From Candidatus Omnitrophota bacterium (GTDB taxonomy: Bacteria; Omnitrophota; Gorgyraeia; Zapsychrales; Zapsychraceae): DNA of 46,053 bases. The notes beneath the pieces were generated by a model. The model saw only the letters and a list, made by a program, of their open reading frames with translations, had not been told where the DNA came from and ran no database searches. Position 1 is the first letter of the stretch. The number at the start of each line of letters is the position of its first letter. The position numbers and the translations under genes are program-made. The stretch is taken from the NCBI GenBank assembly GCA_020053475.1, contig JAGVNC010000027.1, forward strand, positions 1 to 46,053, written 5' to 3'. This document shows positions 18,468 through 41,536 of the stretch, piece by piece.

Positions 18468-18645
18468 CAAATGGTAGTGCAAGGGTAAACCATTCGTAAG
18501 GATGGGACACAAAGCTATCCCGCCGTTTCTTAAGAAATTTAAGGAAAGCGGGACCCCGTCTTCCACTAAGAAATTAGATAGGCGGGGCAGGGCCTTACCC
18601 CGCCAGAAAAGAGTTGGGCGGGGAGGGTAGCCAGTTACCACGATC
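18468..18645 (+). ncRNA. Cyclic di-GMP-I (GEMM-I) riboswitch aptamer with greatly enlarged P3
   Basis: TGGTAGTGCAAGGGTAAACCATTCGTAAGGATGGGACACAAAGCTATCC ... GGGTAGCCAGTTACCACG; P1 TGGTA/TACCA, P2 CCATTC-GTAA-GGATGG with GNRA loop, P3 GCTATCC/GGGTAGC. Confidence 0.85.
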
Positions 18646-27867: not shown

Positions 27868-27954
27868 ATGAAAATGAAGAAAATGTATGAAGTGTCCATG
27901 GAGATCGCGGGCCCGGCGGCGATGTTTACGCGGCCGGATACGGGGGCGGTTTAA
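27868..27954 (+). pseudogene. N-terminal remnant of a Cas5-like protein
   Basis: MKMKKMYEVSMEIAGPAAMFTRPDTGAV*; resembles the Cas5 N-terminal beta-strand plus FTRP(D/E) motif, stops after 28 aa. Confidence 0.5.
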
Positions 27955-27977
27955 TGAGTAAAAATAAGGAAAATTGA

Positions 27978-30350
27978 GTGACCCAATATTTTGCACATAG
28001 CGCCAACAAAGCTGGTAGTCCATGGGAGCCGCTGAAAGAACATCTCCAATGCGTTGCTAAGCGTGCGAGTGAATACGCCGATGTGTTTGGAGCCAAAGAA
28101 GAAGCCGCAATCGCTGGGTTATGGCATGACCTCGGCAAATATTCAGAATTATTCACCAAACGATTGAGAGGAGAAATGAGCGGGCTTGATCACTGGAGTA
28201 CGGGAGCATTGGCAACACTTATTAGTTTTAGAGATAAAGCTGTGGCGGCCGGTTTAGCTGTTCAGGGACATCATATTGGACTTCAAGAAGGTTTTAGCCA
28301 GAGAATCCGAGACGATCTTGATATCACCCGATTATCTGACCCGGCGACACACCCACTTGGATTGACGTTGACTGAACCTAACATCAAAGCCCTTCTTGAA
28401 CGTTTTAAAGCCGATGAATTTGTAATGCCTTCCGCTCCCCAAGTGCCACTTTATGATTTTGTTGCACCATCGGCTGCTGCTATGCTGGATGTGCGAATGC
28501 TTTTTTCTGCTTTGGTGGATGCTGATTATATTGAAACTGAAGCACATTTTGAGGGAAAGTCAGACGGGACAAAGGTGTATCGTTACGAAGGTCCAGGTCT
28601 GCAAGCCAAAAAGGCCTTTGAAATTCTATCGGTGCACTTGGAGGAGCTTGAACGCGTAACGAAATCTTCTCAAAGCGTGCGAAGAATTCGCAAACATCTG
28701 CTCGACACTTGCCTGAAAAAAGCTGGCTTGCCTACGGGTATTTTTACTCTTACGGCTCCAACTGGTGCGGGAAAAACATTGGCGATGCTGGCCTTCGCGT
28801 TAAAGCATTCCATCGCTAATACCAAAATCCGCCGTATTGTTATGGTCGTGCCATTTTTAAGTATTATTGAGCAAACGGCAAAAGTCTATCGACAGTTATT
28901 TGAACCTCATTTGGGGTCGCTTTACATTCTTGAACATCATAGTCTCGTTGGGGCAAGTAGAGAAGGGCGTGGAGATCAATTGAATCTGGATAATGAAGAG
29001 GAGGCCCGTCGTTTGGCTCGGCTATTGGCGGAAAATTGGGATGCGCCGCTGGTCATCACAACAAGTGTACAGCTTTTTGAGTCACTTTTTGCCAATTCAC
29101 CTGCCAAGTGCAGGAAACTGCACCGCCTTGCCGACAGTATTATCCTGTTCGATGAAGTTCAGACGCTTCCGTCTCGTATCGTGATTCCTTCATTAGCCGC
29201 TTTGTCGCGCTTTACAGAACGCTACGGTTGTACGGTTGTTTTCTCAACAGCTACGCAGCCAGCCTTTGATCACCTAAGCGAGAAAGTGAAACCATACGCA
29301 ACAACAGGTTGGCGTCCCCAGAATATTGTGGAAGATTCACTATCTATTTTTAATCAGGCGCGTCGGGTCCAAATTGATTGGCAAGTTGAGCAAACTCGTT
29401 CTTGGGAGTCCGTTGCCGGAGACTTGGCAAAAAATGAAAATTCGCAGTCTCTTTGCATTGTGAATCTAAAACGACACGCGCAAATACTCACAATGCATTT
29501 GTACAAATTAATAGATAAAGACGGGTTATTCCACCTTTCCACGAACATGTGCCCTGCTCACCGCGTGAAAGTTTTGAAAGAAGTTTGCGTGCGGCTCAGA
29601 CCAGACAATTTGCGTCCGTGTCGTTTAATTTCGACTCAATGTGTTGAGGCTGGTGTGGATATCGATTTCCCCGTTGCCTGGCGCGCCTTCGGGCCGCTTG
29701 ATGCTATCGCCCAAGCTGCTGGACGCTGTAATAGGGAGGGGCGGCTGGACGGCCTTGGCCGAATGGTTGTTTTTCTACCTGAAAAAGAACATGATAGGGA
29801 ATACCTCTATCCACCTGGTGGCTATAAGCAGGCGACGGAGACTACAAGAACGCTATTTGAGGAAAAAAAGAATGAGGCTTTTAGAAAAGGTATTTCTTTC
29901 GAGAATATTTTTGACATTTACGATCCTGAGTTATTCAATCAATACTACAGATTGCTTTACAGTTTGACTCGCGCAACTGAATTGGATCTCGATCTCGAGG
30001 ATGCATTGCAACGGCGTTCTTTTGTGGATGTGGCCCAGCATTACCGTTTGATTGGTCCAAGTATCAATGTGCTCGTGCCCTATTCGGATGAAATTGATTT
30101 ATTTGAATCATTAAAGAGGCGGCTCGATAAGGAGGGGCGATTAACGCGTCAATGGATCCAGGACGCGAGACCACTGACCGTCAGTTTGTACCGTCCTAAA
30201 AGCGGTGATACTGTTTGGAATTATCTTTATCCTGTGCCTTTGGGATGTGGTGAACAAGCCGACGACTGGTTTATTTATTTAAACAAAGAAGATTACGATT
30301 CGTTGCTTGGTCTCAAACCGCCTGATGAGGGTGGAGCGTGGATGACATAA
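27978..30350 (+). CDS. cas3: CRISPR-associated helicase/nuclease Cas3 (HD + DEAH), type I-C
   Basis: GLWHDLGKYSELF HD, LTAPTGAGKTLAMLAFAL Walker A, ILFDEVQTLP, STQCVEAGVDIDFPVAWR; GTG start. Confidence 0.93.
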   Translation: MTQYFAHSANKAGSPWEPLKEHLQCVAKRASEYADVFGAKEEAAIAGLWHDLGKYSELFTKRLRGEMSGLDHWSTGALATLISFRDKAVAAGLAVQGHHIGLQEGFSQRIRDDLDITRLSDPATHPLGLTLTEPNIKALLERFKADEFVMPSAPQVPLYDFVAPSAAAMLDVRMLFSALVDADYIETEAHFEGKSDGTKVYRYEGPGLQAKKAFEILSVHLEELERVTKSSQSVRRIRKHLLDTCLKKAGLPTGIFTLTAPTGAGKTLAMLAFALKHSIANTKIRRIVMVVPFLSIIEQTAKVYRQLFEPHLGSLYILEHHSLVGASREGRGDQLNLDNEEEARRLARLLAENWDAPLVITTSVQLFESLFANSPAKCRKLHRLADSIILFDEVQTLPSRIVIPSLAALSRFTERYGCTVVFSTATQPAFDHLSEKVKPYATTGWRPQNIVEDSLSIFNQARRVQIDWQVEQTRSWESVAGDLAKNENSQSLCIVNLKRHAQILTMHLYKLIDKDGLFHLSTNMCPAHRVKVLKEVCVRLRPDNLRPCRLISTQCVEAGVDIDFPVAWRAFGPLDAIAQAAGRCNREGRLDGLGRMVVFLPEKEHDREYLYPPGGYKQATETTRTLFEEKKNEAFRKGISFENIFDIYDPELFNQYYRLLYSLTRATELDLDLEDALQRRSFVDVAQHYRLIGPSINVLVPYSDEIDLFESLKRRLDKEGRLTRQWIQDARPLTVSLYRPKSGDTVWNYLYPVPLGCGEQADDWFIYLNKEDYDSLLGLKPPDEGGAWMT

Positions 30351-30365
30351 AGGTCAGGCTAATAC

Positions 30366-30391
30366 AAAAGGGGGACAATAGTCCCCCTTTT
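30366..30391. terminator. Bidirectional intrinsic terminator between cas3 and the minus-strand crRNA-like gene
   Basis: AAAAGGGGGAC-AATA-GTCCCCCTTTT, perfect 11-bp stem. Confidence 0.85.
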
Positions 30392-30412
30392 GATTTAAAA
30401 ACACTAAATTTT

Positions 30413-30444
30413 GTTTCAATCCACGCGTTTCTATTAGACGCGAC
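30413..30444 (-). repeat. Orphan degenerate type I-C CRISPR repeat
   Basis: 24/32 identity to array repeat; first 6 and last 15 nt identical; stem changes C7-G17 to T7-A17 and C9-G15 to T9-A15. Confidence 0.85.
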
Positions 30445-30451
30445 TATAGAT

Positions 30452-30479
30452 ATAATAGCAAAAAATTTAAATGTTGCAA
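30452..30479 (-). promoter_or_regulatory. Promoter of the crRNA-like RNA
   Basis: TTGCAA (30479-30474), 16-nt spacer, TATTAT (30457-30452); predicted start at the first base of the repeat. Confidence 0.55.
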
Positions 30480-30503
30480 TATAAAAACAATATATTTTGA
30501 ATG

Positions 30504-30532
30504 TTGACAATTCCTGATTTTCTTATTAATAT
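30504..30532 (+). promoter_or_regulatory. Promoter of the NYN gene
   Basis: TTGACA-N17-TAATAT. Confidence 0.7.
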
Positions 30533-30574
30533 AATCGTAAGTATTCATTAGGATCATTGAAACGAAGGGTGTTT

Positions 30575-31066
30575 ATGATCAATAAATCCAACAATTTTGC
30601 TTTTCTCGACAGTCAGAATCTCAATTTGGGGATTAAACAGCAAGGCTGGATCCTCGACTTTAAAAGGTTCCGGGTTTATCTTCAAGAGAAGTACGGGATT
30701 TCAAAGGCTTTTTTGTTTATCGGTTATATTCCGACGAATCAGAGCTTGTACACGGCTTTGCAGTCGTTCGGCTATATCCTTGTTTTTAAACCGACACTAC
30801 AGGGGGCAAAGGGGAAGATCAAGGGCAATGTCGACGCGGAATTGGTGTTACATGCTATGAAGGAGTTGCCGCATTATGACAAAGCGTTAATTGTTTCCGG
30901 AGACGGGGATTTTGCTTGCTTGATCGAATATTTGAACAAGATGAAAAAGCTCTTAAATTTGATGATTCCCGATCAAGGCCAATATTCATCGCTTTTAAGA
31001 AAATTTAATGCGGAGATTATTTTTATGAATAATTTGCGCGCAAAATTGGAATATCACCAGCCATAA
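30575..31066 (+). CDS. NYN-domain (LabA/DUF88-like, PIN-superfamily) putative RNase
   Basis: NFAFLDSQNLNLGI, GNVDAELVLHAMKE, ALIVSGDGDFACLIEYL; ATG at 30575 with GAAGGG upstream is better than the TTG at 30557. Confidence 0.85.
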   Translation: MINKSNNFAFLDSQNLNLGIKQQGWILDFKRFRVYLQEKYGISKAFLFIGYIPTNQSLYTALQSFGYILVFKPTLQGAKGKIKGNVDAELVLHAMKELPHYDKALIVSGDGDFACLIEYLNKMKKLLNLMIPDQGQYSSLLRKFNAEIIFMNNLRAKLEYHQP

Positions 31067-31160
31067 AAAAAGAGAGGCATTGCCGCGGGACGGAACCCTT
31101 TGGATAGCCTCTCATCGTGATACATTGTAAATATACTACGTTTTTCACGTAAGTCAAGGG
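31065..31160 (-). repeat. 96-bp direct repeat copy A with minus-strand promoter/operator and hairpin + T7 terminator
   Basis: Identical by eye to 31399-31494. Confidence 0.9.
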
Positions 31161-31175
31161 GAAAACCCCTTTTTT
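31158..31175 (+). terminator. Probable short terminator after NYN gene
   Basis: GGGG-AAAA-CCCC followed by TTTTTT. Confidence 0.5.
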
Positions 31176-31193
31176 CCTCCACTATTTCGGTTC

Positions 31194-31364
31194 CTAGCCG
31201 GAGCGATGTTTGCGGTACAACTGCAAGAGGTACGCGCTAACGTTATCCAGCCCGGCGGCCTTGGCGTCGGACTCGATTTGGGCTTTGTCAGTCGCCGTTG
31301 CCCGGATAGTTATCCATTCGGATTTTATTTTTTTAGTTCTGGGTGCGGCTTTTGGGTTTTGCAT
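31194..31364 (-). CDS. Small ribbon-helix-helix-like protein, 56 aa (absent from ORF track)
   Basis: AAGGAG then ATG: MQNPKAAPRTKKIKSEWITIRATATDKAQIESDAKAAGLDNVSAYLLQLYRKHRSG*. Confidence 0.7.
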   Translation of the reverse strand: MQNPKAAPRTKKIKSEWITIRATATDKAQIESDAKAAGLDNVSAYLLQLYRKHRSG

Positions 31365-31398
31365 TTTAGCTCCTTTTTATAATTTATTTGCCTCAACA

Positions 31399-31494
31399 AA
31401 AAAAAGAGAGGCATTGCCGCGGGACGGAACCCTTTGGATAGCCTCTCATCGTGATACATTGTAAATATACTACGTTTTTCACGTAAGTCAAGGG
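31399..31494 (-). repeat. 96-bp direct repeat copy B (promoter/leader of the 56-aa ORF)
   Basis: Minus strand TTGACT-N16-TATATT, TACGT-N5-ACGTA operator in spacer, GAGAGGC...GCCTCTC hairpin then T tract. Confidence 0.85.
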
Positions 31495-31552
31495 ATGAAT
31501 TTAGTAGAATTCGGAATGCTTTCATGGACTTGAATCGAAAGGAGTAAGGTAG

Positions 31553-32344
31553 ATGAAAATATCCTCTAAACCCCAAATACTCGAAGTTTGGGGCGAGTTT
31601 GCTTGTTTTTCGCGCCCTGAATTAAAAGTAGAACGTTTTAGTTATCCCATTATTACCCCCAGCGCGGCGCGGGGGATTTTTGACGCGATTTATTGTAAAC
31701 CTAACAGAAATCCGGTTGAGGCGCAGTTTCGCTGGCAGATTACGAAGATCGAAATGCTTGCGCCCATCGCTTATATTGCCCTGCGGCGCAATGAAGTGAA
31801 GGAGAAAATTGCTCTTGGTACGAAAACAGACCCAACAAAGTATGTCGGAGATTGGTTAGAAGGAATTGCCATGCCCGATCTTATATATGCAGACGCGGAT
31901 AAGGATTTTAGTGGAAATGATACAAAAGGTCGCACCCAGCGGCAAACCATGGCGCTTAAAAATGTGCGGTATCGTCTGACTGCTGAAATACGTCCCTTCC
32001 CTGGGCATGAAGACAAACAGCAGGCGCTTGAAGCGCAGTTCCGGCGGCGTGCCTCTCACGGGAAATGCTTTCATCAGCCGTGCATGGGCTGCCGTGAATT
32101 CCCGGCTTATTTTGAGTTGAAGGAGGTTGGTGAGGAATTGAGTGCGGTGGTTGATTATTCCCAAGATATCGGATGGATGCTCTATGATGTCTTCGACTTG
32201 CGCCGTCCCGGTTTGCCGTTGATGGAAGGAAAGAAGCCGTTTATTTCTCTGTTTCACGCGCAGATTGAGAAAGGCGTACTCGACGTTCCCGATTTCGACA
32301 GCCCCGAAGTTCTGAAACCCGAACAGGAGGCCGCCCATGCTTAA
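31553..32344 (+). CDS. cas5c: CRISPR-associated protein Cas5, type I-C (Cas5c/d)
   Basis: LEVWGEFACFSRPELKVERFSYPIITPSAARGIFDAIYCKP. Confidence 0.93.
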   Translation: MKISSKPQILEVWGEFACFSRPELKVERFSYPIITPSAARGIFDAIYCKPNRNPVEAQFRWQITKIEMLAPIAYIALRRNEVKEKIALGTKTDPTKYVGDWLEGIAMPDLIYADADKDFSGNDTKGRTQRQTMALKNVRYRLTAEIRPFPGHEDKQQALEAQFRRRASHGKCFHQPCMGCREFPAYFELKEVGEELSAVVDYSQDIGWMLYDVFDLRRPGLPLMEGKKPFISLFHAQIEKGVLDVPDFDSPEVLKPEQEAAHA

Positions 32345-34142
32345 TTTATTGATTGATTACGCAAAAACGCACGGTTTAACTATTGAACCTGGTTTCAAAC
32401 CTAAAACGGTCCGCTGGGCAATTGTTTGCGATAAAGCCGGACGCTTTCTTAATGTTCAGGAATTGGGCAATTCTGATGACAAAAAGAACAGGGGCCAAAT
32501 TTTCTCTGTATGTCCTGACCTTTCACAGCCTGAGATGAAGGCGGGCGGTTCCGGATGCCGGCATTTTCTGGTGGATAATGTTGAGGTCGTTACCTTACTT
32601 GGTAAAGAGGGCGACGTATCCGGTGATAAGAAGGCCAAAGCCAAACATGATTTTTTTGTTTCACTTCTACGGCAAGGAGCGAACGCGATGAAAGTACTCG
32701 ATAATCTCGCAGATCTTTTGGATTCAGAGGATGCGCTCTCTGCAATCCAACGGGCGTTTGCCGCGAAACGCTTTAAACCGACGTATAGTGTAACGTTCGC
32801 CATTACCGGGCGTGTGCCGATGTTTTTGGTTGAAGACAATGCTTGGCACGACTGGTGGCGAGGCTTCCGCCAATCCCTGCTTGCCGGGAAATCCGCAAAG
32901 AGAAGAGGGTCTTCTAAAACAGTTTCAGATCAGATTTCCATGAACAAATCGATGCGCTGTTTTGCCAGTGGTGGATTTGTGGAACCCGCATCAACTCATC
33001 CTAAAATCGAAGGATTGTCTGATGTCGGCGGATTGTCCATGGGGGATGTCCTGGCGGGATTTAAACAGGAATCTTTTTGTTCATATTTTCTGATTCAATC
33101 AGAAAATGCCGCTGTCTCCGGAGACATGGCCGCGGCTTATCGCGGTGGCTTGAATGATTTAATCAAAAATCATTCACGGCGTTTGACCAGTGCCAAAGTT
33201 GTTCACTGGTATGCGGGTAAGAAGGAAGTTCCCAATGAACTGGATCCATTAAACTGGCTTGTCGATGTTGAGGATACCGATACGGCTGAGCGTGACGCTC
33301 AGAACAGGGCACGTTCTTTGCTGGATTCCATTCGCTCTGGTGAACGTTCGGAACTGTTGCATTATCGTTTCTACTCATTGACGTTATCGGGAGCTTCCGG
33401 CCGCGTTATGATCCGTGATTGGATTGAGGGGCAGTTTGGGGAATTGGCCGCGAATATTGATGCGTGGTTCAGTGATCTCGCCATTGTCCGGCGAGACGGA
33501 GACACACTTGCCAAGCGTCCCAAATTTCTGGCAGTTTTGGGCGGACTTGTTCGCGAATTGAAGGATATTCCTCCTCCCGTTGAAGCAAAGCTTTGGCGTG
33601 TGGCCGTTCGCAAAGAACCGATTCCAGAGTTCGTTATGGCCCAGGCGCTTTCCCGTGTCAAAGTGGATGTTATTCAAGATGAACCCATGAGCCATGCCCG
33701 CATGGGATTACTAAAAGCCTATCACATAAGGAAAGGAGACAAGAATATGCAGCCTTACTTAAATGAGGACCATCCAAATCCGGCGTATCATTGCGGGAGG
33801 TTGATGGCAATGTATGCCGACCTGCAGTATGCGGCGTTGGGAGACGTAGGTGCCGGTGTGATTCAGCGCTATTATGCCTCCGCCAGTGCCACCCCCGCAC
33901 TGATTCTCGGGCGGCTCAGCCGCGGCAGCCAGTTCCATCTTAACAAGCTGGAGGGAGGCCTTGCGCATTGGTACGAGCAACGTTTGGCTTCCATTTGGGG
34001 GCGTATTCAAGACGCACCTCCGAAAGTTTTGACGCTTGAAGAACAAAGTCTTTTTGCCTTAGGATACTATCAGCAAAAGGCAGCCCCGCGAAAGAGTGCT
34101 AGTGATAATAATCAGCAACAATCTAATGTGAAGGAGAAATAA
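32337..34142 (+). CDS. cas8c: CRISPR-associated protein Cas8c/Csd1
   Basis: Position between cas5c and cas7c; [46 protein letters not shown]. Confidence 0.9.
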
Positions 34143-34144
34143 TT

Positions 34145-35128
34145 ATGATTACACCTATCGCCAACCGTTATGAATTTCTATTTCTTTTCGACTGTCAGAA
34201 CGGTAACCCTAACGGTGACCCGGATGCCGGCAACGCCCCTCGCATGGATCCGCAAGACATGCGTGGTCTAGTTTCCGACGTTGCCATTAAGAGACGCATT
34301 CGTAATTACGTGCAGGTCAGTCGAGGCAACGAGCCGCCTTATTCCATATTTGTGGAACATGCAACAAACCTGAACAGGCCTATTGCTAAGGCCCATGAGG
34401 AGACCGGTGGTCTCCCTGATGAAAAGAAAGGTGCAGGAAAGGATAAGGTGGAGGCGGCCAAACAATGGGTTTGTCGCAATTTTTATGATGTGCGTGCTTT
34501 TGGTGCTGTGATGAGTACTGGAGCTAACGCTGGCCAGGTGCGTGGTCCTGTTCAAGTCGCATTTTCACGTTCAGTGGATCCAATATTGCCTCTTGACGCT
34601 TCAATTACCCGCATGGCTGTTACGGAAAATGTTAAAGGAATCAGATCCAGTGCTGAAATTAAAAAATGGGAGGATGATCAACCAGAAGATAAACTCCGAA
34701 CCATGGGTCGTAAATCATTGATTCCTTATGGCCTTTATATCGGCAAAGGATTCATCAGCGCTAACTTGGCTGACCCAGTTCATGGCGGCACGGGTTTTTC
34801 AGAGGACGATCTAAAATTGCTTTTTGAAGCGATTCTTAACATGTATGAGCATGATCGTTCCAGCAGCAAGGGATTGATGACCGTTCATCCCGAATATACG
34901 TTCGTCTTCAAGCACGTTGGCACAGACAAAGACAAAGAGCAGCGTGCCAGGCAAGCCAAGCTTGGCTGTGCTCCAGCCCATAAACTTTTTGACTTGGTGG
35001 AAAGCAAGATTCCCCATATCAAAGAGCCCCGGTCAATCAAAGACTATGGCAAGTTGCCAACTCTGGAAGAGATCCGATTGGCATTACCCGTAGGTATGGA
35101 AGTCTATCGGATGGATAAATTGAATTGA
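34145..35128 (+). CDS. cas7c: CRISPR-associated protein Cas7/Csd2, type I-C
   Basis: [50 protein letters not shown]. Confidence 0.95.
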
Positions 35129-35151: not shown

Positions 35152-35739
35152 ATGACCTTAAAACCTTCCATTTACCCCCTCAAACTCACCCTCTCCCACA
35201 CCCGTCCACCCATCTGGCGGAGGGTGGAGGTGCCGGCGGATATTTCGCTTTACCGTCTGGCGGCGGTCATCATAACGGCCATGGGCTGGTCCGGCGGGCA
35301 TTTGCACCAGTTTCGGATCGGAGAGGAATATTACGGCATTCCTCACGAAGATGATCTCTCGGAAACAATTGACGAACGGAAGGTATCGCTCAAAAGTATT
35401 GTCGACCAGGGAATTAAGAAATTCATTTTCGAATACGACTTCGGCGACGGCTGGGAGCACGTGGTCGAGTTTGAAGGGACCATAGAGCCGTCGAAAGGTG
35501 CCAAGTACCCGCGCTGTACCGCCGGCGCGCGGTGTTGTCCGCCTGAAGATTGCGGCGGCCCTCCGGGTTATGAGGATTTCCTGCAAGCGATCCGTGACCC
35601 AAAGCATCCTGAACACGAGTCCATGCGTGAATGGATCGGCGGGGATTTTGATCCAGAAAAATTTTATCTTAATGCCCTCTCTGATCTTGCCGACGCCTCG
35701 GAAAGCATGGAAGAAGAGTGGAATGAACATTTTGAATAA
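35152..35739 (+). CDS. Plasmid pRiA4b ORF-3 family protein
   Basis: LKLTLSHTRPPIWRRVEVPADISLYRLAAVIITAMGW...HLHQFRI, FEYDFGDGWEHVVEFEG. Confidence 0.9.
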   Translation: MTLKPSIYPLKLTLSHTRPPIWRRVEVPADISLYRLAAVIITAMGWSGGHLHQFRIGEEYYGIPHEDDLSETIDERKVSLKSIVDQGIKKFIFEYDFGDGWEHVVEFEGTIEPSKGAKYPRCTAGARCCPPEDCGGPPGYEDFLQAIRDPKHPEHESMREWIGGDFDPEKFYLNALSDLADASESMEEEWNEHFE

Positions 35740-35773
35740 AGAAAGGTCACAATTTCTCTCTTCTGAAAGATAA

Positions 35774-36058
35774 TTGGATGAAAAGGCAGTTGTCGAGGAA
35801 TCCTCGATAACTGCTTCGGACGGAAAAAAGTATAAAATGAAACATTACAGCCTCGAAGCGATCATCGCTGTAGGTTACAGGGTCAATTCCGCCCGCGGCA
35901 CTCAGTTTCGCATTTGGGCCACGGACCGGCTGAAAAGCTATATCCTCAAAGGTTTCGCAATCGATAAAGACAGGTTTATTAAAGGCTCGAAATTTGACGC
36001 GCGGTATTTTGATGAATTGCTCGAAGAGTGGCGGGTGGGGGCAAATAACTTAGCATAA
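35774..36058 (+). pseudogene. RhuM-family fragment
   Basis: SSITASDGKKYKMKHYSLEAIIAVGYRVNSARGTQFRIWATDRLKSYILKGFAIDKDRF...FDARYFDELLEEWR; N-terminal domain missing, in-frame stop just upstream, only a TTG start. Confidence 0.7.
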
Positions 36059-36070
36059 TGTCTCAGGCGT

Positions 36071-36100
36071 ACTCTGAAAAAGTCTTGACTTTTTCAGAGT
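36071..36100. promoter_or_regulatory. Perfect 14-bp inverted repeat over a TTGACT -35-like box, upstream of the AAA ATPase
   Basis: ACTCTGAAAAAGTC-TT-GACTTTTTCAGAGT. Confidence 0.75.
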
Positions 36101-36118
36101 ATAGTATAGACTTCAAGT

Positions 36119-37348
36119 ATGGATAAAAGAGCCCTTTACAAAGAGATATGGCGCCAGTTGTCCGCTGACAAATCTTTAGTGATCCTTGCCGGGCCGAGGC
36201 AGGCCGGTAAAACGACATTCGCCCGCGAGATCGCGGCAAAAGATTTTTCGGACACGGTCTATTTTAACTGGGACCTGCCGAAAGATAAAAGGCGGATCAT
36301 TGAAGACCCTGTTTTTTTCTCCAAAGAGCCCCGTGCCAGCGCTTCTTCCCGTCCGCTGGTCATTCTCGATGAAATTCATAAATACCGTGACTGGAAAAAT
36401 TACCTTAAGGGAATTTATGACCAGTTTGCCGGAGAGTACCAATTCCTTGTTACGGGCAGCGGCCGCCTGGAGTTTTCCCGTAAAGCGGGGGATTCGCTGG
36501 CCGGCCGGTTCCTTAAATTCCATATCTTTCCTTTCACGTTAGCGGAGCTTTCCGCCCGCCGAAAAACGCTGCGGGATTTCATGGACCATCCTTTGGCCGG
36601 CTTTGACGATTCTGCGGCTAAAGAGACGGCGTTGGCGTTTGGATCCCTTTGGGAGTTCAGCGGTTTCCCTGAACCTTTTATGAAGGCAAGAAAGAATTTT
36701 TGGTCGACATGGAGCACGGCCTACGGCCATCAGATTGTCCGCGATGACCTAAGGACTCTCGCCGACATCCGCAACCTCGACGTTGTTGAAACCCTTTTCG
36801 CGCTCGTGCCTTCCAGGGTGGGGAGCCCCTTGTCAATGAATAACCTGGCGGGAGACCTTCAGGTCGCTTTTGAAACCGTCAAAAATTGGCTTCTTCTTTT
36901 TGATTCGTTTTATCTGACGTTCCGCCTGAGCCCCTGGACGGCAAAAATTTCAAGGAGTATCCTTAAGGAAAAGAAAATCTATCTGTTCAATTTCCCGGTC
37001 ATCGAGGATGAGCCGGCGCGCTTTGAGAATCTGGCGGCCTTGGAATTCTTGCGGGCCGTTGAAACCTGGAATGATCAGGGGCTCGGCAAATTCAGCCTGC
37101 ATTATCTCAGGAACAAAGACAAGCAGGAGGTTGATTTTCTGCTGGCGGAAGGCAACCGGCCGTTCCTTTTGATCGAAACCAAGCTGTCGGATGAAACTCC
37201 GGCGACAAACCTCAGGGCCTTTCAAAATTTCCTGAATATCCCCGCCGTGCAGCTCATCAAAAAAGAAGGGGTCAATAAAATTTATAAGAACGGGAAAAAT
37301 GATATCTTGGTTGTGACGGCCCACCGCTGGCTGTCAGCGCTTCCGTAA
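36119..37348 (+). CDS. AAA ATPase with DUF4143 domain
   Basis: VILAGPRQAGKTTFAREIA, LVILDEIHKYRDWKNYLKGIYD, FLVTGSGRLEF, NKDKQEVDFLLAEGNRPFLLIETK. Confidence 0.9.
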   Translation: MDKRALYKEIWRQLSADKSLVILAGPRQAGKTTFAREIAAKDFSDTVYFNWDLPKDKRRIIEDPVFFSKEPRASASSRPLVILDEIHKYRDWKNYLKGIYDQFAGEYQFLVTGSGRLEFSRKAGDSLAGRFLKFHIFPFTLAELSARRKTLRDFMDHPLAGFDDSAAKETALAFGSLWEFSGFPEPFMKARKNFWSTWSTAYGHQIVRDDLRTLADIRNLDVVETLFALVPSRVGSPLSMNNLAGDLQVAFETVKNWLLLFDSFYLTFRLSPWTAKISRSILKEKKIYLFNFPVIEDEPARFENLAALEFLRAVETWNDQGLGKFSLHYLRNKDKQEVDFLLAEGNRPFLLIETKLSDETPATNLRAFQNFLNIPAVQLIKKEGVNKIYKNGKNDILVVTAHRWLSALP

Positions 37349-37372: not shown

Positions 37373-38005
37373 ATGTATCTCGAGGACGACCTTCTGCCCA
37401 TCTCCGCCCTTCAGCATCTTTTGTTCTGCGAGCGCCAGTGCGCGCTGATCCACATCGAGCAGGTGTGGGTCGAGAATATTTTCACGGCCCAGGGGCGGGT
37501 GATGCACGAGTGCGTGCACAGTGAGGCGGCCGAGAGCCGGCGGGACACGCGTGTTGAATTCGGAATGCCGGTGCGCTCTCTTCGGCTGGGGCTTATCGGA
37601 AAAACGGATGTGGTCGAATTTCACCTTATGCCGGATAAAAGCTGGCGGCCCTTTCCGGTCGAATATAAGCGCGGAAAAAAGAAACCGGACAACCGCGATA
37701 ATGTCCAGCTCTGCGCCCAGGCGTTGTGTTTGGAAGAAACGCTGGGGGCAAGCATTCCGTCCGGCGCCATCTTTTACGGCAAAGAGCGCCGCCGGACAGA
37801 CGTGGCATTTGACGCCGCATTGCGGGAAGAAACGGAAAGGACCGCGCGCCGTTTACGCGATCTGATCCAGTCAGGGCAGACCCCCAAGGCGGTTTATAAA
37901 CCGGAGTGCGACAGCTGTTCCTTGATCAACTATTGCCTTCCGAAAACAATGCAGAACGCGAAACCTGTCCGGCAATATTTTGATGAAATGATCCAACGTT
38001 TATGA
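37373..38005 (+). CDS. cas4: CRISPR-associated exonuclease Cas4
   Basis: PISALQHLLFCERQCALIHIEQVW, EYKRGKKK, CDSCSLINYCLP. Confidence 0.93.
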   Translation: MYLEDDLLPISALQHLLFCERQCALIHIEQVWVENIFTAQGRVMHECVHSEAAESRRDTRVEFGMPVRSLRLGLIGKTDVVEFHLMPDKSWRPFPVEYKRGKKKPDNRDNVQLCAQALCLEETLGASIPSGAIFYGKERRRTDVAFDAALREETERTARRLRDLIQSGQTPKAVYKPECDSCSLINYCLPKTMQNAKPVRQYFDEMIQRL

Positions 38006-39033
38006 AAAAACATCTTAACACTTTATTCGTGACGACCCAGGGGGCTTATCTTCACAAAGAAGGCGAGACTATTGTTGTTAAGATCGAGGATGAGGCCAAA
38101 TTAACACTCCCCATACATACGATCGGCGGGGTTGTGTGTTTCGGCCAGGTGGGGATGAGCCCGTATTTAATGGCGTTCTGCGCCGAGAATGACGTGGGGG
38201 TGAGTTTTCTGACGGAGACGGGAAGTTTTTTGGCCAAAGTGCAGGGGTTTGTTGCCGGCAACGTTTTATTGAGGAGGGAGCATTACCGCCGGGCGGACGA
38301 TACCGATACGAGCGTCAAGATCACCAAGTCTGTTTTAACGGCAAAGTTCGCCAACGCGCGTTCCGTTTTGCAAAGGGCGTTGAGAGACCACGGGCACAAG
38401 ATCAATGAAGCGGAAGTCGGCAAGGCCGCCGATCGGATCACGCAGTCTTTAAAACGCCTGGATATGCCTTTGGGCATGGATGAACTGCGGGGGCTGGAAG
38501 GGGACACGGCGCATTCTTATTTTCAGGTGTTCGATCATTTGATCGTTTCGCAGAAAGATGATTTTTCCTTCCATGAGCGCAGCCGCCGGCCGCCGTTGGA
38601 TAACGTGAACTGCCTGCTCTCTTTTATTTATACGATCCTGATGCACGATGTGCGATCAGCGCTGGAAGCTGTCGGGCTGGATTCCGCCGTCGGATTTCTT
38701 CACCGCGACCGCTCTGGCCGTCCGGGGCTGGCATTGGATATCATGGAAGAATTCCGGCCCTTTTTGGCGGACCGGTTGGTGCTTTCATTGATCAACCTCG
38801 GGCAGGTCCATAAAAAAGGTTTTCAAAAACATCAGTCGGGGGCGGTTTTAATGGATGATGAAACTCGTAAGACACTTCTGACCGCGTATCAAACGCGCAA
38901 GCAGGAAGAGATCGTTCATCCTTATTTGGAAGAAAAGGTCACGATAGGCATTTTGCCCCATATCCAGGCGCTCCTTTTGGCCAGGCACTTAAGGGGAGAT
39001 CTCGACGGGTATCCCGCGTTTATTTGGAAATGA
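38002..39033 (+). CDS. cas1: CRISPR-associated endonuclease Cas1, type I-C
   Basis: LNTLFVTTQGAYLHKEGETIVV, GLDSAVGFLHRDRSGRPGLALDIMEEFRP. Confidence 0.95.
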   Translation: MKKHLNTLFVTTQGAYLHKEGETIVVKIEDEAKLTLPIHTIGGVVCFGQVGMSPYLMAFCAENDVGVSFLTETGSFLAKVQGFVAGNVLLRREHYRRADDTDTSVKITKSVLTAKFANARSVLQRALRDHGHKINEAEVGKAADRITQSLKRLDMPLGMDELRGLEGDTAHSYFQVFDHLIVSQKDDFSFHERSRRPPLDNVNCLLSFIYTILMHDVRSALEAVGLDSAVGFLHRDRSGRPGLALDIMEEFRPFLADRLVLSLINLGQVHKKGFQKHQSGAVLMDDETRKTLLTAYQTRKQEEIVHPYLEEKVTIGILPHIQALLLARHLRGDLDGYPAFIWK

Positions 39034-39045
39034 AAGGAGGGCGGC

Positions 39046-39336
39046 GTGTTTGTTTTGGTAACTTATGACGTGGCTGTCACTGCGGAAGGCGGAGTAAGGC
39101 GTTTAAGGCGGGTGGCGCGCGCCTGCAAGGACTGGGGCCAAAGGGTCCAATTCTCCGTCTTTGAATGCATCGTTGATCCGGCGCAGTGGACAATGTTAAA
39201 GAATCGGCTGATGGAAGAAATGGACCAGGAAAAAGACAGCATGCGTTTTTACTTTTTGGGGTCGAACTGGGAGCGCAGGGTCGAACATGTCGGCGCCAAT
39301 AAACCGCTGGACCAGCAGGGCCCTTTGGTTGTTTAA
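39046..39336 (+). CDS. cas2: CRISPR-associated endoribonuclease Cas2
   Basis: FVLVTYDVAVTAEGGVRRLRRVARACKDWGQRVQFSVFEC. Confidence 0.95.
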   Translation: MFVLVTYDVAVTAEGGVRRLRRVARACKDWGQRVQFSVFECIVDPAQWTMLKNRLMEEMDQEKDSMRFYFLGSNWERRVEHVGANKPLDQQGPLVV

Positions 39337-39515: not shown

Positions 39516-39871
39516 GTCGCGCCCCATGCGGGCGCGTGGATTGAAACAAATCTTTTGAATTTATTGACCATATTTTCATTGTCGCGCCCCATGCGGGCGC
39601 GTGGATTGAAACGTTTTTAGGCGACGTGGCGGCGGAATTGAAACGTCGCGCCCCATGCGGGCGCGTGGATTGAAACCACGGACACCCGTGAAACTGTTAA
39701 CCCTTGTAGGTCGCGCCCCATGCGGGCGCGTGGATTGAAACAATGCCTGATCGGGTAAAAGGCTTTCCAGTTTAGGTCGCGCCCCATGCGGGCGCGTGGA
39801 TTGAAACATTAATCGCGGGGGTTAGGATGCAGGAAATTTGTCGCGCCCCATGCGGGCGCGTGGATTGAAAC
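39516..39871 (+). CRISPR. Type I-C CRISPR array: 6 x 32-nt repeats, 5 spacers of 32-34 nt
   Basis: GTCGCGCCCCATGCGGGCGCGTGGATTGAAAC at 39516, 39581, 39645, 39710, 39776, 39840, all identical. Confidence 0.98.
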
Positions 39872-41360: not shown

Positions 41361-41484
41361 GAAATTTTTGATGTAAATGACGTTGGGTTAAATTGAGATG
41401 AACTCCGCGATGATTTTTGATTAATGACAGGTTCGTGGAAAAGTCAAAATAAGTCTTTTGTATTAAATAAGTTGTAATAAGTGA
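41358..41484 (+). promoter_or_regulatory. Second, diverged CRISPR leader (leader 2)
   Basis: 43/55 identical, no gaps, to the repeat-proximal part of leader 1; weaker similarity further upstream. Confidence 0.75.
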
Positions 41485-41536
41485 GTCGCGCCCCATGCGC
41501 CTGCCTGACGACAGGCAGGGGCGCATAGACTGAAAC
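41485..41536 (+). repeat. Orphan CRISPR repeat interrupted by a 20-bp palindrome
   Basis: GTCGCGCCCCATGCG-[CCTGCCTGACGACAGGCAGG]-GGCGCATAGACTGAAAC; removing the insert gives 32 nt with 3 mismatches. Confidence 0.9.

Follow-up and report, generated by a model that had tools for sequence, protein, structure and literature searches.

A putative crRNA-like regulatory RNA gene facing a NYN-domain gene in the type I-C CRISPR-Cas locus of a Candidatus Omnitrophota bacterium

What is a single degenerate CRISPR repeat doing between cas3 and cas5 in the type I-C CRISPR-Cas locus of a Candidatus Omnitrophota bacterium? The stretch of DNA analysed, hereafter the window, comprises 46,053 nucleotides (nt) of contig JAGVNC010000027.1 (GenBank assembly GCA_020053475.1), and its cas3-cas5 gap measures 1.2 kb, compared with <200 nt in most type I-C loci. 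The repeat lies in this gap on the minus strand, within positions 30366-30479. Examination of its surroundings makes it likely that it belongs to a CRISPR RNA (crRNA)-like regulatory RNA gene, the product of which would bind, by means of the type I-C Cascade, a divergent promoter region shared with a gene coding for a NYN-domain protein, and so repress both itself and the NYN gene. Such an RNA probably serves to repress these two genes rather than to attack viruses.

The RNA gene consists of a promoter, the 32-nt repeat, a spacer-like guide segment and a terminator formed by an 11-bp hairpin (Table 1). All of these were found on the minus strand where the original prediction, made from the letters of the window alone, had placed them, with a predicted start at the first base of the repeat (30444) and a guide running from 30412. 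The RNA would be about 80 nt long, and the eight substitutions in the repeat and the preservation of its last 15 nt, 11-nt handle included, were borne out by comparison with the array repeat. The sequence CGCGTGGATTGAAAC occurs seven times in the 2.03-Mb assembly, six times in the array and once in the RNA gene. The terminator hairpin (30391-30366) reaches -18.9 kcal/mol, a value equalled by none of 200 shuffles, and is predicted to work on both strands, terminating cas3 as well. Rfam returned no match for the RNA element.

The same prediction, correct as to the pieces of the RNA gene, overlooked a target that lies in this intergenic region as well. At 17 of 20 positions the guide AAAATTTAGTGTTTTTAAAT matches AAAATATATTGTTTTTATAT (30498-30479, minus strand), directly behind the trinucleotide TTC. 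The mismatches fall at positions 6, 9 and 18, the first and the last of which belong to the bases flipped out by type I Cascades. None of 5000 dinucleotide shuffles of this AT-rich region reached 17/20 behind TTC (chance <2e-4), and the chance was 6e-4 when the guide was shuffled instead. The number of such matches expected in the window is 0.00; no second target site was found there, nor any other TTC-flanked site within 3 mismatches in the 2-Mb assembly. The similarity between guide and target stops at the repeat and past about guide position 20, and since it is confined to the guide it does not reflect a plain or tandem duplication.

TTC is a demonstrated protospacer adjacent motif (PAM) of type I-C systems, and type I-C interference in Xanthomonas required a guide of at least 27 bp (PMC8406640), so that a match of about 20 bp suits binding by Cascade without cutting. 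The target lies between the RNA gene and the divergent NYN gene, over the -35 box of the RNA gene itself, with 2 bp separating its PAM from the -35 box (TTGACA) of the NYN promoter; a bound Cascade would sit on both promoters.

The machinery for such a circuit is present. The type I-C locus is complete (cas3, cas5c, cas8c, cas7, cas4, cas1 and cas2), and Cas5c, Cas7 and Cas8c are intact. What we infer from the sequence, namely transcription, processing by Cas5c, binding by Cascade, repression and the function or toxicity of the NYN protein, would proceed as follows. The RNA would be transcribed from its own promoter and stopped at its own terminator, and Cas5c would cut the degenerate repeat to release an RNA made of the handle TGGATTGAAAC, a guide of about 20 nt (beginning AAAATTTAG) and the 3' hairpin. 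Once taken up by the type I-C Cascade of the locus, this RNA would direct it to the site behind TTC in the divergent promoter region that the two genes share, where a mismatched pairing of about 20 bp would be enough for binding and too short for cleavage by Cas3. Bound Cascade would then block the promoter of the RNA gene, which amounts to autoregulation, together with that of the NYN nuclease gene. Expression of NYN would rise whenever Cascade is lost, blocked by an anti-CRISPR protein or titrated by crRNAs.

Similar elements recur in other phyla. A sample of 95 type I-C loci, 80 of which were obtained by searching GTDB genomes with a Cas3 alignment (two duplicates dropped) and the rest from Omnitrophota, was scanned for a motif resembling the handle and, after it, 20 nt recurring behind TTC at most 600 nt away; positions 6 and 12 were ignored and matches demanded elsewhere. 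Nine loci passed this position-weighted scan: the window and eight others, from Tautonia (L121), Desulfonema magnum (L140), Delftia tsuruhatensis (L168), Kushneria aurantia (L127), Chamaesiphon (L133), Burkholderiales (L146), Desulfarculales (L147) and a Verrucomicrobia genome (L120). Their guides are all different, each fitting its own local TTC site. Over the nine elements, mismatches occur at position 6 (9/9), position 12 (7/9) and position 18 (6/9), and almost nowhere else in positions 1-11. Scrambled-handle controls gave 0-2 matches, except for one with 300, which is tentatively ascribed to array sequence.

Because the first scan had ignored positions 6 and 12, it was repeated without weights. 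At a threshold of at least 15/20, all five matches were mismatched at position 6, compared with 11 of 79 control matches, and the concentration of mismatches at 6, 12 and 18 had P = 1.7e-8. An unweighted search at 14/20 or better does not discriminate (controls average about 5 matches); the position-weighted search and the sixth-base pattern are what separate real from control.

Seven of the eight other elements lie in the cas3-cas5 gap, as in the window; that of Verrucomicrobia lies upstream of cas3, and its target covers the -10 box of that gene. In Verrucomicrobia and Tautonia, as here, the RNA gene and the gene opposite it point away from each other, and a second degenerate repeat is apparent by eye in the Desulfonema, Kushneria and Burkholderiales elements. 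A tenth candidate (L152) looks alike, but is flanked by GTC. A search of plasmid records for conservation of the other elements gave no match. Also in this sample, the Kushneria gap holds a HicAB pair. A lone repeat whose 3' half is almost intact, located between KilA-N and ATPase genes upstream of another type I-C locus (L056, 1964-1995, plus strand), was set aside, as no convincing target was found for it.

The PAM-flanked local target and the eight loci of like anatomy lend support to the original proposal of a stand-alone crRNA-like RNA used by Cascade, in the manner of CreA and CreR. By its sequence, the window element belongs with a class of such crRNA-like regulators in type I-C systems. 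Two marks of CreA and CreR RNAs are found in it: a degenerate repeat of the co-resident type with a conserved handle (24/32, last 15 nt identical) and a guide against a PAM-flanked promoter site in the same locus (17/20 behind TTC, P<2e-4).

Among the closest known systems is the CreA RNA of CreTA in Haloarcula hispanica (one-psi-R form), which shares with the window element a degenerate repeat, a guide partly complementary to a nearby TTC-flanked promoter, a terminator in place of the second repeat and a location in the cas locus (PMC8501985, PMC9458426). CreTA belongs to a type I-B system with Cas6 (PMC8501985, PMC9458426), whereas the window has type I-C with Cas5c; moreover, the toxin of CreTA, a type VIII toxin-antitoxin, is a small RNA, whereas the gene facing the target here codes for a 163-amino acid NYN protein. 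CrePA, which combines a protein toxin with a crRNA-like antitoxin, also aims a crRNA-like RNA at the promoter of a protein gene (PMC12737573), and the gene that would be regulated in the window is protein coding, its promoter lying 2 bp away from the PAM. CreP toxins are typically KilA-N proteins acting on FtsZ (PMC12737573), unlike the NYN putative nuclease with its own small RNA (sRNA).

CreR RNAs, which regulate cas genes, are mini-CRISPR RNAs directed at a promoter within the cas locus, as would be the case here, and were reported for types I-B, I-E and V-A (PMC13131331, PMC12737573). The reviews do not name type I-C among the types tested, and the target promoter leads first into NYN rather than into a cas gene. 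Several of the other type I-C elements look like CreR. The eight further type I-C regulators with TTC targets are apparently undescribed and, judging from the open literature that was searched, a CreA/CreR-type RNA of type I-C facing a NYN gene is new.

Several observations weigh against a repressor RNA of this kind. The compensatory stem changes put forward in the original prediction are real for pairs 7-17 and 9-15 (C-G to T-A), but pair 8-16, which it omitted, is a C-A mismatch; with this pair broken, the stem is weaker, at a predicted -4.9 kcal/mol compared with -14.3 for the array repeat. Pairing of the handle with the guide is predicted within the full-length RNA, and the target has a mismatch at position 9 besides those at 6 and 18. 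Neither does the nearest kinship show the element. The prediction had suggested looking for it between cas3 and cas5 in relatives, and elements of its kind, with other guides, were present there in seven distant type I-C loci but not in the nearest Cas3 relatives (L091-L103), where the gap is about 20-100 nt. No close relative with the same element was found: single-sequence scans of genome contigs and of viral contigs with Cas3 and NYN gave no relatives of the window locus, and none of the other Omnitrophota type I-C loci has a comparable element. Against these short, element-free gaps, the stretch with the RNA element, the NYN gene, the sRNA copies and a small ribbon-helix-helix-like open reading frame (ORF) has the look of an insertion specific to this lineage.

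The gene facing the target belongs to a family with 60-84% identity across the phylum, in which Asp12, Asp87, Asp110 and Asp112 are conserved; its product retains the catalytic Asp residues and is related by sequence to the solved protein VPA0982 (2qip). None of the other NYN homologues lies near cas genes, a further point against the proposed circuit; as they do without CRISPR control, the NYN protein need not be toxic, which lowers our confidence in a toxin role. The nearest homologue (84%; L022, 251-733, plus strand) carries an in-frame TAG, with the sRNA still present. This sRNA gene is convergent with NYN and overlaps or abuts the stop codon in nearly all full-length NYN homologues fetched (L009-L016, L069-L090). 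It is laid out as a TTGACA/TATAAT-like promoter, ATCACGAT and a three-helix hairpin with a T-rich end. Across 30 sequences, 95.7% of pair cells are standard and double changes occur in 7 of 12 pairs, a result equalled by none of 500 shuffles. No Rfam family was found for it. In a scan of 197 genomes nearly all sRNA copies adjoin NYN, with five adjoining other genes. The NYN nuclease and the sRNA could possibly form a two-part module.

As to the purpose of the circuit, we would tentatively put first a guard of the CrePA kind, which suits the geometry and in which NYN would be the effector kept in check. In its full form, which we hold still more tentatively, a type I-C guard module would have Cascade hold down an sRNA-paired NYN ribonuclease until an anti-CRISPR attack releases an RNA-cutting abortive response, and the class would span several phyla. 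The next candidate, possible though on balance doubtful, is autoregulation of the CreR type. The RNA and its target would be the same, the purpose would be to limit Cascade, and the repressed promoter would also drive cas5, cas8 and cas7 by read-through past NYN in a single autoregulated operon, with NYN and its sRNA as a later insertion into the regulated gap. The elements of Desulfonema, Burkholderiales and Desulfarculales speak for it, as they lie in a short cas5 leader that leaves hardly any space, or none, for a further gene, and so does that of Verrucomicrobia, which faces cas3. In the window itself, cas3 ends in a strong terminator and cas5 must consequently have a promoter somewhere in the gap; within 30300-31600, no plus-strand promoter-like site other than the NYN promoter was found. 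The lack of any further clear promoter for cas5 makes a CreR-like circuit possible. On the other hand, NYN is the first gene under the target promoter and cas5 lies further downstream, past a weak terminator-like hairpin, two convergent sRNA genes and a minus-strand ORF, and no target was found directly at cas5 or cas3 of the window locus.

The solitary repeat might otherwise be the last repeat of an old array, with promoter and terminator accidental, and a genuine remnant does exist at 41430-41499, where a truncated repeat stands behind a second leader. That only one repeat is left and that it has eight substitutions would fit such decay. This alternative, already named in the original prediction, is improbable and found no support. 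An array has two or more near-identical repeats and a leader, but here there is no neighbouring repeat, and the leader copies are confined to 39461 and 41430; what is preserved is the handle and not the leader side, with the changes concentrated in the loop and stem; a PAM-flanked 17/20 local target would not be expected of a remnant; and like anatomy is seen in eight unrelated loci.

It is very improbable that the RNA is a decoy sequestering Cas proteins and brought by a mobile element. Racr RNA anti-CRISPRs (PMC10651486) are viral repeat-mimicking decoys that also come from a solitary repeat-like RNA gene, here with a terminator, and the neighbouring NYN-sRNA unit looks mobile; however, the window has no phage context, and a match of the guide to an adjacent PAM-flanked promoter is not required of such decoys. 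Equally hard to credit is a one-spacer immune mini-array acquired from an invader, for which a repeat and a spacer-like segment are present but a second repeat and a leader are not, while the terminator falls within the spacer length and the self-target lies next door.

If the proposed repression by a crRNA-like RNA is true, RNA-guided self-regulation of a CRISPR effector reaches type I-C, a common minimal subtype without Cas6, and the NYN nuclease with its linked sRNA would be a testable candidate effector. Standard CRISPR finders skip such modules because they contain only one degenerate repeat. What the elements have in common (handle, TTC target, mismatches at 6/12/18) can be computed, which opens the way to genome scans for hidden regulator or guard modules.

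Table 1. Features of the type I-C locus and of its cas3-cas5 gap in the window.
Feature	Position	Strand	Remarks
cas3 (type I-C)	27978..30350	+	
Intrinsic terminator hairpin of the RNA gene, AAAAGGGGGAC/GTCCCCCTTTT	30366..30391	-	perfect 11-bp
Guide segment (psi-S) AAAATTTAGTGTTTTTAAAT	30393..30412	-	17/20 to 30498-30479, mismatches at 6, 9, 18
Degenerate type I-C repeat (psi-R) GTCGCGTCTAATAGAAACGCGTGGATTGAAAC	30413..30444	-	24/32 identical to array repeat; intact 11-nt Cas5c-type handle TGGATTGAAAC
RNA-gene promoter TTGCAA-N16-TATTAT, extended TG	30452..30479	-	TTGCAA 30479-30474, TATTAT 30457-30452
Target: TTC PAM (30501-30499) and 20-nt protospacer (30498-30479)	30479..30501	-	overlaps the RNA gene's own -35 region
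NYN promoter TTGACA-N17-TAATAT	30504..30532	+	-35 box begins 2 bp from PAM
NYN-domain (LabA/DUF88-like) putative nuclease, 163 aa	30575..31066	+	Pfam NYN PF01936
Conserved sRNA gene, copy 1	31063..31121	-	convergent with and overlapping NYN 3' end; promoter TTGACT-N16-TATATT at 31157-31130
Short terminator-like hairpin AAGGGGAAAACCCCTTTTTT after NYN	31156..31177	+	weak, -8 kcal/mol, no better than shuffles
Small ribbon-helix-helix-like ORF	31194..31364	-	weak NikA-like match; between the two sRNA copies
sRNA gene, copy 2	31397..31455	-	within perfect 96-bp repeat 31399-31494 of 31065-31160
cas5c, pre-crRNA processing nuclease	31553..32344	+	
cas8c and cas7, rest of Cascade	32337..35128	+	
cas4, cas1, cas2	37373..39336	+	
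Ordinary CRISPR array	39516..39871	+	6 repeats GTCGCGCCCCATGCGGGCGCGTGGATTGAAAC

Some further features of the window were noted. Just upstream of cas3, a short plus-strand ORF (about 27870-27955) resembles by eye the N-terminus of another Cas5 (MEIAGPAAMFTRPDTGAV) and is perhaps a remnant of an earlier operon. Between cas7 and cas4 (35152-37348, plus strand) lie PRiA4_ORF3, a short RhuM fragment (PADLOC PDC-S05) and an ATPase gene matching PADLOC PDC-S01; RhuM- or PRiA4-like genes are also found near further type I-C loci (L056, L065, L093, L098 and L153). The array remnant, on the plus strand, has a second leader copy 83% identical over 70 nt, 1.97 kb beyond the array leader, and only the first 15 nt of the repeat. 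Finally, a c-di-GMP-I riboswitch aptamer (18474-18533, plus strand), scored at the gathering threshold (35.3 bits), is located slightly upstream of pilin-like genes.
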